Positions 34,673 through 38,779 of a stretch of 64,000 bases of DNA are shown here, one piece after another. Numbering within the stretch: position 1 is the stretch's first letter; each line of letters begins with the position of its first letter. This DNA is from Bdellovibrionia bacterium (lineage in GTDB: Bacteria; Bdellovibrionota; Bdellovibrionia; Bdellovibrionales; JAGQZY01): assembly GCA_030427805.1 (NCBI GenBank), contig JAUICP010000002.1:372001-436000 (forward strand), written 5' to 3'. Both the position numbers and the translations under genes were made by a program. The notes beneath the pieces were generated by a model. That model searched no databases. It saw only the letters and a program-made list of their open reading frames with translations, and had not been told where the DNA came from.

Positions 34673-37555
34673 ATGTCTGAAAAGCCATCAAAGTCGCTAC
34701 CAGAGCGCCATCTAGGAGAATTCGTCTATCGTCATATTGGCCCCAATCCGAATGAACAAGAGGCCATGCTAAAAACTCTGAAGCTTTCGAATCTCGAGGG
34801 TCTTATCGGTGAAACTGTACCCGCTGGAATTCGAAGTCACGAGGGCATGGAACTTCAAGCCGGCCTTGGCGAAGTAGAAGCTCTCCAAAAACTCAGATCC
34901 TACGCCAATGAAAATGTTGTTGCACGCTCTATGATAGGCCAGGGCTATTACGATACCCTGACTCCATCGGTGATCCTTCGCAATGTCCTGGAAAACCCAG
35001 GTTGGTATACTGCTTACACTCCTTACCAAGCTGAAATCTCTCAAGGACGCCTTGAGGCCATGCTTAACTTTCAAACGATGGTCATGGAATTAACGGGGAT
35101 GGAGATCAGTAACTCTTCGCTACTCGACGAGGGAACTGCAGCGGCAGAAGCCATGGCTCTCGCCTACCACTTACAGAGAAGAAACCCGAAGAACAAGATT
35201 TTAGTCGACAAAAATATTTTTCCTCAAACACTCGAAGTCTTAAAAACTCGCGCCCTTCCTTTAGCTATTGAAGTAGCGCTCATCGATATTAACGACCTTG
35301 ACCAACAAAGCGATTACTTCGCATGCCTGGTTCAGAACCCCGGAAGAAACGGTCATGTCCGCGATCTCACGGTAAATATTGAAGCCATTCACAAAGCCGA
35401 AGCCTTGGCGATTGTCGCAGCCGATATCGCCTCTCTTTGCTTAGTAAAACCTCCAGGCGAAATGGGTGCTGATATCGTTATTGGCAGCACACAACGATTT
35501 GGTGTTCCCATGGGATACGGCGGCCCCCACGCAGCCTTTCTCGCGACTCGTGATAAGCACAAAAGATCAGTTCCAGGAAGAATCGTTGGGGTTTCAAAAG
35601 ACACACAAGGCCGACCCGCATTGCGCCTCGCTTTGCAAACAAGAGAACAACATATTCGCCGCGAAAAGGCCACGAGTAACATCTGTACAGCCCAGGTTCT
35701 CCTCGCTGTTATGTCCAGCATGTACGCTGTCTACCACGGCCCACAAAAACTCCAAGAAATCTCTATGCGAATCGCTCGCATGACTGACCTTCTGGCTTTG
35801 ACACTTAAAAAAGCCGGATTCGAATTTGAAACAGAAGAAGTTTTCGACACCTTAAAAGTGGTTAACTTAAAAGATAGTAGTAAAATCAAGGCTAGAGCTG
35901 AGAAGCATAAGTACAACTACTTTTTTGAGGGTACTTCTGCATTTATCTCATGTGATGAGACCACAACTCTTGATGACGTTATTAAAACTCTGCGCATTTT
36001 CACCGGTCAGGACGATCTCACTCCCGAATTCGCCGATATCAGCGATCTTGAAATTGCGACAATTCCTAAAAGTCTCATGAGAAAAACGGAATTCCTCAGC
36101 CAAGAGGTCTTTAATTCCTATCACTCAGAAACTGAATTGTTGCGATACCTCCATCGCCTTCAGCAAAAAGACCTCTCATTGACTCATTCAATGATTCCTC
36201 TTGGTTCTTGCACAATGAAGCTCAATGCTACGACAGAGATGCTTCCTGTGACTTGGCCAGAGTTCGGGCGCATCCACCCTTTTGCACCCAACAGCCAAAC
36301 TAAGGGTTATTTAAAAATGATTCGAGAACTCGAGCATATGTTGGCCGAAGTTTCTGGTTTCTCTAATGTTTCTCTACAACCCAACGCTGGCTCCCAAGGT
36401 GAGTACGCCGGACTCTTAGCTATAAGAAAGTTTCACGAAGCTAATAACCAAGCTCATCGAAATATCTGCCTCATCCCAAGCTCCGCCCACGGAACCAATC
36501 CCGCTTCTGCTGTCATGGCAGGAATGAAAGTGGTCGTCGTTGCTTGTGATGACCAAGGGAATATTGATTTCGCAGACTTACAAACCAAGGCAGAACAACA
36601 CAAAGAGAATCTTTCATCTTTGATGATTACCTACCCCTCAACTCACGGAGTTTTTGAGGAAAATGTTCGAGAGATTTGCCAACTGGTTAAGGACAACGGC
36701 GGCCGTGTTTATATGGACGGAGCTAATACAAATGCCATGATCGGTTTGTGTAAGCCCGGAACTTTTGGTCCGGACGTTATGCACTTTAATCTGCATAAAA
36801 CCTTCTGCATTCCCCACGGTGGTGGCGGACCTGGAATCGGCCCGATTGGTGTCACAAAGGAGTTAGCTCCTTACCTTCCAAGTCACGAGCAGAATGAGTT
36901 AGCCGGCCCCAAAACAGGTGTTGGCGCCATTTCGGCAGCACCCTTCGGTTCGGCTTCAATTCTTCCTATCTCTTGGACCTACATGACCATGATGGGCGCC
37001 GAGGGCTTGAAACTAGCTTCTGAAATTGCAATCCTCAACGCCAACTACCTAGCGGGTCGCCTCGAAAGCAGTTTTCCAGTTCTCTACAAGGGAAGTAAGG
37101 GCCGTGTTGCCCATGAATGTATTCTCGATGTTCGATCTTTTAAATCGTCTGCGGGAATTTCGGTTGATGATATTGCCAAGCGATTGATGGATTATGGCTT
37201 TCACGCACCGACTATGTCGTGGCCGGTTGTAGGAACTCTTATGATTGAACCGACTGAGTCAGAATCCCAAGCCGAACTGGATCGCTTTTCTGAAGCTATG
37301 ATTTCTATTCGTTCTGAAATTGATAAAGTTGAAAAAGGCCTATGGCCGAAAGACGATAATCCTCTTGTGAATGCTCCCCACACCCTTGAAGATCTTGTGG
37401 CTAAATGGGATCACGCTTACACGAAAGAAGAAGCCGTCTTTCCTCTTGGCTGGGTAAGAACCCATAAGTTCTGGCCCGCAGTCAATCGCGTGGACAATGC
37501 CTATGGCGACAAAAATCTTCACTGCTCTTGCCTGCCCCTTGATGCCTACGAGTAG
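34673..37555 (+). CDS. gcvP: Glycine dehydrogenase (decarboxylating), P protein
   Basis: A 960-residue single-chain P protein of the glycine cleavage system. It decarboxylates glycine and passes the aminomethyl group to lipoylated H protein. The PLP-binding Lys lies in [15 protein letters not shown], followed by G-G-G-G-P-G. Full length for the fused type (N- and C-halves together). The ribosome site GGAGG lies seven bases ahead. No gcvT or gcvH is seen nearby, and no glycine riboswitch fits in the 92-base leader. It ends at a strong terminator. Confidence 0.97.
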
Positions 37556-37580: not shown

Positions 37581-37612
37581 AAGGACTGTGTCACCCACAC
37601 AGTCCTTTTTTT
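37581..37612 (+). terminator. Rho-independent terminator of gcvP
   Basis: AAGGACTGTGT, five-base loop, ACACAGTCCTT: an 11-bp perfect stem followed by seven T, 25 bases past the gcvP stop. Its T-run touches the left end of the long inverted-repeat element. Confidence 0.93.
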
Positions 37613-38026
37613 ATCCCTTCTCCTTCGAAGTTCACCGGTACTTAGAACCCTTCGCTCTGTCTTTTTGAATAATGCCGTGCAATTTTTCAAACAGTCCTCA
37701 ACCAATCTGCCTCAGGGGATTTTTCGGTATATGGCTCTCGGTCTTATTTTACTCCGAGAGATATGGAATTTCGAGTTCCGCAGGCCCTGATAAAAAATCT
37801 TAGGACGAGCATATTCTAATTTAATTTAAAGCCAATCTAACCGCCGAGGACTGTTTGAGAGAATTCTATATCTCTCGGAGTAAAATAAGAGTGAGAGACC
37901 TATATATCTATACCGAAAATCCCCTGAGGCAGATTGGTTTGCGGAACTCAAAATTGCAGGATTATTCAAAAAGACAGAGCAAAGCTAAGTACCGGTGAAC
38001 TTCGAAGGAAAAGGGGGGATAAAGGA
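37604..38026. repeat. About 420-bp inverted-repeat element with exchanged segments
   Basis: Two arms of about 160 bp face each other around a spacer of about 80 bp. Perfect pairs: 37621-37645 with 37985-38009 (25 bp); 37654-37673 with 37961-37980 (20 bp); 37742-37764 with 37868-37890 (23 bp). A 30-bp pair with one indel joins 37702-37731 and 37909-37937. Two short pieces pair out of order: 37688-37699 with 37846-37857, and 37773-37782 with 37940-37949. No coding frame lies inside. It looks like a non-coding mobile element (MITE-like) or a large structured RNA. It fills most of the 620-base gap between gcvP and the next lipoprotein gene. Confidence 0.85.
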
Positions 38027-38176: not shown

Positions 38177-38779
38177 ATGCGTACTTATCTTTTTATTCTA
38201 CTACTTATTGGAGTCTTAGCTTTCGTTAACGCCTGCGGGAATGGCGAAAAGACCGAGACTGCCGACACTGATCCCAACCCGGATCCCGTTGTTACAGTGA
38301 CTAACGTGAGTGAAGCCCTCGTTGAAACTACGTGGTGTACTTTACCTTGCGATGCGAACGATGACGATAAAACCGGATGCGACGCCGTTGACTCAATAGT
38401 CGCCGTTTATTTTGATGCCGATGGAAACATGCAAATGCAAAAGCATATGGCCAATGCCGACGGCACTATCGATATTAATCCAACTCGAGTTGACTTCGGA
38501 ACCTGGAACTTAGATGAGGATAACACCCTATCTCTGATCCGGAACCTCAAGTACTTTGAAGGTCCGATCGAAGTCACTACTGATAAAATTGGTGAGAAAC
38601 GTCTTTTCTTCTACGATCCGAACGATACTGCTAATCGCACAGGTGAATGGAAGGAGTGTTTCGCTCCTCGCGTAGAGGCCGTTATTCAGGGGAAAGCCGA
38701 ACAAGCTCCAACTGAAGAACTCGGTCCCGATGGCACTCCCTATGCCGACGAGGATTACGAGCCTAAACTCTCTCTTTAA
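38177..38779 (+). CDS. Putative lipoprotein, 200 residues
   Basis: The leader (about 1-19) ends F-V-N-A-C-G, a good lipobox with Cys20. The mature chain is strongly acidic and has a pattern of paired Cys (T-T-W-C-T-L-P-C and later K-E-C-F). The part W-C ... V-A-V-Y-F-D-A-D-G-N-M and F-G-T-W-N-L recalls lipocalin-like or META-like small beta proteins; this is only suggestive. AGGGAGG precedes the ATG. It lies just past the inverted-repeat element. Function unknown. Confidence 0.65.
   Translation: MRTYLFILLLIGVLAFVNACGNGEKTETADTDPNPDPVVTVTNVSEALVETTWCTLPCDANDDDKTGCDAVDSIVAVYFDADGNMQMQKHMANADGTIDINPTRVDFGTWNLDEDNTLSLIRNLKYFEGPIEVTTDKIGEKRLFFYDPNDTANRTGEWKECFAPRVEAVIQGKAEQAPTEELGPDGTPYADEDYEPKLSL

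Follow-up and report, generated by a model that had tools for sequence, protein, structure and literature searches.

A structure-defined family of dispersed intergenic hairpins with a conserved bipartite core, from Bdellovibrionota to Actinobacteria and planctomycetes

The window analysed here, a stretch of 64,000 nucleotides from a Bdellovibrionia bacterium, contains a 423-bp element located between a gene ending at position 37555, which from its translation we take to be gcvP, and a putative lipoprotein gene starting at 38177, both on the + strand. The intrinsic terminator of gcvP (37582..37611, + strand) can be read directly from the sequence as AAGGACTGTGT-CACCC-ACACAGTCC followed by a T tract, and the left outer arm of the element (37605..37686, defined by inverted repeats I2 and I4 and by the fold) starts inside this T tract. 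It is followed by X (37687..37699, - strand), an exact match to GAGGACTGTTTGA that forms the 3' half of an outer core; the left inner arm S (37700..37772, repeats I3 and I1), which separates the two cores; and Y (37773..37782, + strand), an exact match to GAGTTCCGCA that forms the 5' half of an inner core. A variable terminal loop region (37783..37845), corresponding to the Y-to-X' interval of the inner core, leads to X' (37846..37858, + strand), the exact GAGGACTGTTTGA word as 3' half of the inner core, and then to the right inner arm S' (37859..37939, repeats I1 and I3), to Y' (37940..37949, - strand), the exact GAGTTCCGCA word as 5' half of the outer core, and to the right outer arm (37950..38026, repeats I2 and I4 and the fold).

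The original prediction described this piece as a palindrome of inverted blocks in which two pieces, X and Y, had been exchanged, and a repeat search of the window located the blocks and both pieces where they had been placed. The inverted arms pair at 37615-37645/37985-38015 (31 nt, 97%), 37650-37673/37961-37984 (24 nt, 96%), 37700-37723/37916-37939 (24 nt, 100%) and 37728-37770/37862-37904 (43 nt, 88%). The displaced piece X at 37687-37699 pairs with 37846-37858 (13 nt, 100%), and Y, in an extended form at 37764-37782, pairs with 37940-37958 (19 nt, 89%), within which the 10-nt core 37773-37782/37940-37949 is an exact match. RNA folding, which had been suggested as a check, bore out a strong structure: either strand of the 423 bp folds into a single rod-like hairpin, with energies of -227.2 kcal/mol (z -20.0) and -223.0 kcal/mol (z -21.7), both about 20 standard deviations more stable than dinucleotide shuffles.

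The exchange of two pieces has a different explanation. X and Y each form one half of a single bipartite core, 5'-GAGTTCCGCA ... GAGGACTGTYTGA-3', of 10+13 nt (23 nt), and the halves stand opposed in a long hairpin. The window copy has two antiparallel cores, the inner Y..X' on the + strand and the outer Y..X' on the - strand, so that it reads X S Y loop X' S' Y' along one strand; it is the writing of one core per strand along a single strand that makes the palindrome look shuffled, and this layout is common to most copies in the genome. The arrangement is not a product of chance, since both words recur in the same layout elsewhere in the genome and in other phyla. From 149 distinct copies the consensus is stem-GC-GAGTTCCGCA-G-stem-(variable loop)-stem-C-GAGGACTGTYTGA-GC-stem, in which the stems vary in sequence and pair in register, and the UUCC of Y is able to pair with the GGA of X'. 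Bdellovibrio-like genomes have a weak inner stem (-7.1 for own against -5.2 for crossed inner arms), so that the core there caps a long stem beneath a large loop. No gene was found between Y and X' in the loci examined for gene-bearing versions. At Bdellovibrio-like loci (L170-L199 and L283-L305) the Y-X' loop often contains a hairpin that resembles a terminator when read on the opposite strand, and an ORF boundary is often 43-62 bp away from the X' side.

As a query against its own genome, the full 423-bp element matched itself alone, and a permissive search of relatives gave matches of about 20 nt in two parts of the query, one near Y and the other near X', paired at a similar distance. Pattern searches of its own genome for Y (GAGTTCCGCA) and X' (GAGGACTGTTTGA) gave paired matches at several places, and the copies extracted there are long hairpins that differ in their stems and share the two opposed words. 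Such hairpins occupy eight further places in the genome (nine sites with the window copy), and the core is also present at orthologous sites in the congener. The proposed BLAST search is thus answered in two ways, the full-length piece being single and the core recurring in the genome and its relatives; a single copy with no relatives, which had been expected of a mere local rearrangement, is not what was found. Elements of the window genus typically bear the core twice in antiparallel orientation, as seen at the nine own-genome sites examined, and at these the opposite-strand core is intact in some cases and degenerate in others, the degenerate ones being less certainly counted because they were spotted by eye in the sequences. 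Convergent genes flank seven of the nine copies, the window copy being an exception, and several sites adjoin terminator T tracts. Genome G000 also contains, at C3:679474 (L025) and C3:709217-709239 (L026, L027), further palindromic arrays that consist of GTTCCGCA/TGCGGAAC words (e.g. AGTTCCGCAAATGAGTTCCGCAAGCTGCGGAACTCATTTGCGGAACT) and lack X'.

Around the fixed core, the stems covary. Outer arms pair far better with their own partner than with arms crossed between copies in the window genus (-47.7 vs -13.7 kcal/mol), the Bdellovibrio-like genomes (-58.0 vs -17.9 kcal/mol) and Adlercreutzia (-46.1 vs -26.2 kcal/mol), and most stem positions pair in register more than shuffled sequences do, each showing several pair types. 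Copies of one subfamily at different sites in Adlercreutzia hattorii differ in their outer arms, while the arms within each copy match one another; at the hisA-hisF site of several Adlercreutzia species, the core is identical and the stems are quite different, having been replaced. The copies and their consensus establish a family of core-bearing hairpins and its anatomy.

Related species differ by gain, loss and inversion of these elements. In the Adlercreutzia spacer between two genes that we take to be secA and prfB, the element is present in four species, in one of which it occurs as two copies of opposite orientation; another species lacks the spacer altogether, and a further two have an unrelated hairpin. 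The latter (G147, L314; G153, L312) is a long hairpin at the site of the element, exemplified by GGTTCCGACCGGCACCTG..CAGGTGCCGGTCGGAACC in G153. In Luteibacter OK325, a unit of about 600 bp with two antiparallel cores is present at more than ten places with about 90% identity and is missing from the orthologous spacers examined in its relatives, and it represents a recent spread. Short tandem units (e.g. GGACGTAGCGGCGCAGAGCCTTCGGTG) lie on the flanks of these Luteibacter units (L355-L366), some of which have complementary ends near terminator T tracts. Comparison of four sites between the two species of the window genus shows the unit turned around with respect to its flanks at two of them: at C6:854.9k a full-length alignment is obtained only in the inverted direction (93.9% over 261 bp), the direct one covering the arms only at about 80%, and at C11:158.5k the inverted alignment reaches 73% with almost none in the frame of the flanks. 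A further inversion is possible at L283 and L305 in Bdellovibrio-like genomes, which may be orthologous sites beside a 363-aa ORF with opposite core orientations. Element-free spacers were found, but they are too diverged for exact ends or target-site duplications to be read. The original prediction, of repeated recombination or strand switching in a MITE-like element, is right as regards a repeated, hairpin-forming element, and whole units are also seen to invert; an exchange of pieces within this copy is not supported.

The family extends far beyond the window's order. Scanning of 84,980 species genomes with the pattern GAGTYCCGCA N48-78 GAGGACTGTYTGA, for which we estimate about one match by chance, gave at least 118 stretches in many phyla. 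Among the matches listed are Luteibacter, Singulisphaera-like and other planctomycetes, Latescibacterota, Adlercreutzia and other Coriobacteria, Omnitrophota, Myxococcales, Eisenbacteria, a Lachnospiraceae MAG, Acidobacteria, Gemmatimonadetes, Krumholzibacteriota and Bdellovibrionia. Many of the pattern-bearing genomes are MAGs, but a finished genome (A. hattorii) and that of an isolate (Luteibacter OK325) are also among them. In the window's own order, a similar pattern is found in 20 of 141 genomes, belonging to 3 of 66 genera only. The exact X' word occurs 8 times in the window's genome, 7 times in the congener, 0-7 times in Bdellovibrio-like genomes, 17 times in the Latescibacterota genome G141, 36 times in A. 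hattorii and 70 times in Luteibacter OK325, against 0-1 per genome for the backwards control word; the 23 Luteibacter genomes considered include copy-rich and copy-poor ones. Because many loci had been fetched with both words, the coupling of the two was assessed with X' as the sole search word: at 23 of 27 usable loci Y is present within 250 nt upstream of it, compared with 17 of 560 random positions. The copies are scattered, single or paired, and often form inverted pairs; in A. hattorii (G142), 31 of the 36 exact X' words fall between 0.8 and 2.41 Mb of a 2.9-Mb record. The hairpin repeat family occurs between genes in about ten major bacterial groups, from Bdellovibrionota to Actinobacteria and planctomycetes. 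A literature search for the core words on both strands, with most subscription journals outside its scope, returned no relevant paper, and this real and recurrent, structure-defined family, for which no published name was found, is apparently undescribed.

The window element belongs to this dispersed family as one of its two-core copies, and the family is proposed to act as REP-like DNA under some enzyme or factor, a reading in which we place roughly even confidence. Copies with co-directional neighbours are oriented sense in 20 cases and antisense in 21, the others being convergent (30) or divergent (10); these counts are noisy in GC-rich genomes, since codon-position composition was used to call the ORFs. 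In the Bdellovibrio-like genomes 9 copies are sense and 11 antisense. Some groups have more G.U pairs on the core strand, whereas Adlercreutzia has more on the other one; their strand asymmetry disappeared on de-duplication by organism, for which reason it was not used as evidence. Taken as a whole, these observations lean toward an orientation-independent DNA element. Such an element would form its hairpin when single-stranded, and the exposed core would be recognised in folded form by an enzyme spreading or maintaining it, on the model of REP hairpins handled by RAYTs and attC hairpins handled by integron integrases. Recombination between the inverted arms would flip the units where they lie, and with one core per strand the element would stay readable in either orientation.

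The strongest competitor, a possible though less probable one, is a putative structured RNA, in which the copies would be transcribed and an asymmetric internal loop would bind a protein or be catalytic, the stems merely presenting the loop; a two-core element would then supply one working RNA per strand, for example at the 3' ends of both convergent transcripts. Covarying helices around an invariant asymmetric internal loop are typical of RNA, and the convergent setting of most own-genome copies, with a core on each strand, agrees with such a role, as does the retention of the core at hisA-hisF while the stems turn over. A functional RNA would be expected to show this long-term conservation and the covarying stems just as much, and both therefore count against the DNA reading. 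The empty enzyme search described below is likewise what a ribozyme or a widely conserved binding protein would lead one to expect. However, sense bias is absent where it could be tested, the units invert between species, the G.U asymmetry did not hold across organisms, and no Rfam 15 covariance model matched at the gathering score, permissive scans giving only miRNA-type hairpins at chance level; one named RNA motif that was looked into gave no result either. An RNA function of the core hairpins is possible. A retroelement RNA with a reverse-transcriptase partner was also considered and rejected, as RVT_1 (PF00078) had no match in the core-bearing genomes G141, G143 and G144.

The convergent placement of seven of the nine own-genome copies could reflect a role at transcript ends, which likewise counts against the DNA reading. 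It is improbable that the hairpins are host-adopted architectural or transcription-boundary elements, isolating mainly convergent units and bound at the core by a common host protein: the convergent bias and the terminator T tracts beside several sites speak for this, whereas the patchy occurrence among close relatives, in few genera of the order, and the species-level gain and loss fit an essential host function poorly.

A somewhat smaller chance still is given to a REP/BIME-type repeat of unusual sequence moved by a Y1 (RAYT) transposase. Like REP, BIME and REPIN sequences, the present elements are dispersed, extragenic and palindromic, often form inverted pairs, are enriched at gene 3' ends and are patchy between species, and Y1 genes are present in most, not all, of the genomes tested. 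Y1 transposase (PF01797), however, had no match in the core-bearing G141 and G145 nor in the copy-rich Luteibacter G165, and nearly all other Luteibacter genomes have exactly one Y1 gene, copy-rich or copy-poor alike; the core was not found on the flanks of the Y1 loci examined. The REP tags of the RAYT superfamilies are GTAG or CGTC (PMC3733652), neither of which stands at the stem base in the consensus of 149 copies, where the conserved part is an internal-loop core rather than a terminal tag. Moreover, the elements are 100-420 bp long (about 600 bp for the Luteibacter units) against 20-40 bp, and their stems are unrelated between copies. Membership of the REP/RAYT system was rejected on the missing tag, the length and the failure of Y1 genes to track the core. 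Finally, a one-off rearranged palindrome without wider meaning, to which the self-match of the full 423 bp might have pointed, is refuted by the recurrence of the core in the same layout in the genome, in the congener and across phyla.

It counts against the REP-like DNA reading that no partner enzyme was found: neither Y1 transposases nor reverse transcriptases track the core, and no gene clearly recurs beside the elements, where there were only loci orthologous between related genomes or common genes in scattered places. That a 10+13-nt core stays fixed from Bdellovibrionota to Actinobacteria and planctomycetes while its stems change freely implies a partner that is specific and shared widely. 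Such a partner may have been overlooked, since an ordinary sequence search sees no more than about 20 nt of the element at once. We consider it somewhat less than an even chance that the hairpins form an unnamed superfamily, mobile or host-adopted, in about ten phyla, whose 23-nt bipartite core is read only when folded, with either a dedicated enzyme or a new class of functional RNA behind it. Finding the partner would place a further structure-recognised kind of repeat next to REP/RAYT and attC/IntI, or define a new RNA class, and would account for some of the palindromes that lie between bacterial genes.

The family would resemble REP and attC in its manner of working, yet it lacks the tested defining features of both. 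Integron attC sites, recognised by IntI through their fold, are likewise hairpins with variable stems and terminal parts and few fixed positions; unlike them, the present consensus has no RYYYAAC/GTTRRRY boxes, there are no cassette arrays and no integrase gene was seen to recur alongside. Membership of attC was rejected on the missing R and L boxes and on the scattered occurrence of copies, singly or in pairs. With MITEs the elements share short, non-coding units with inverted arms, many copies and, in some cases, recent spread, but their stems are copy-specific and covarying rather than the fixed terminal repeats of one transposase. Internal-loop RNA motifs offer the fixed asymmetric loop between covarying helices, and differ in the points of Rfam matching, transcription sense and inversion raised above. 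A Luteibacter unit had no match among plasmids, nor the window element among phages; three viral contigs bear the pattern.
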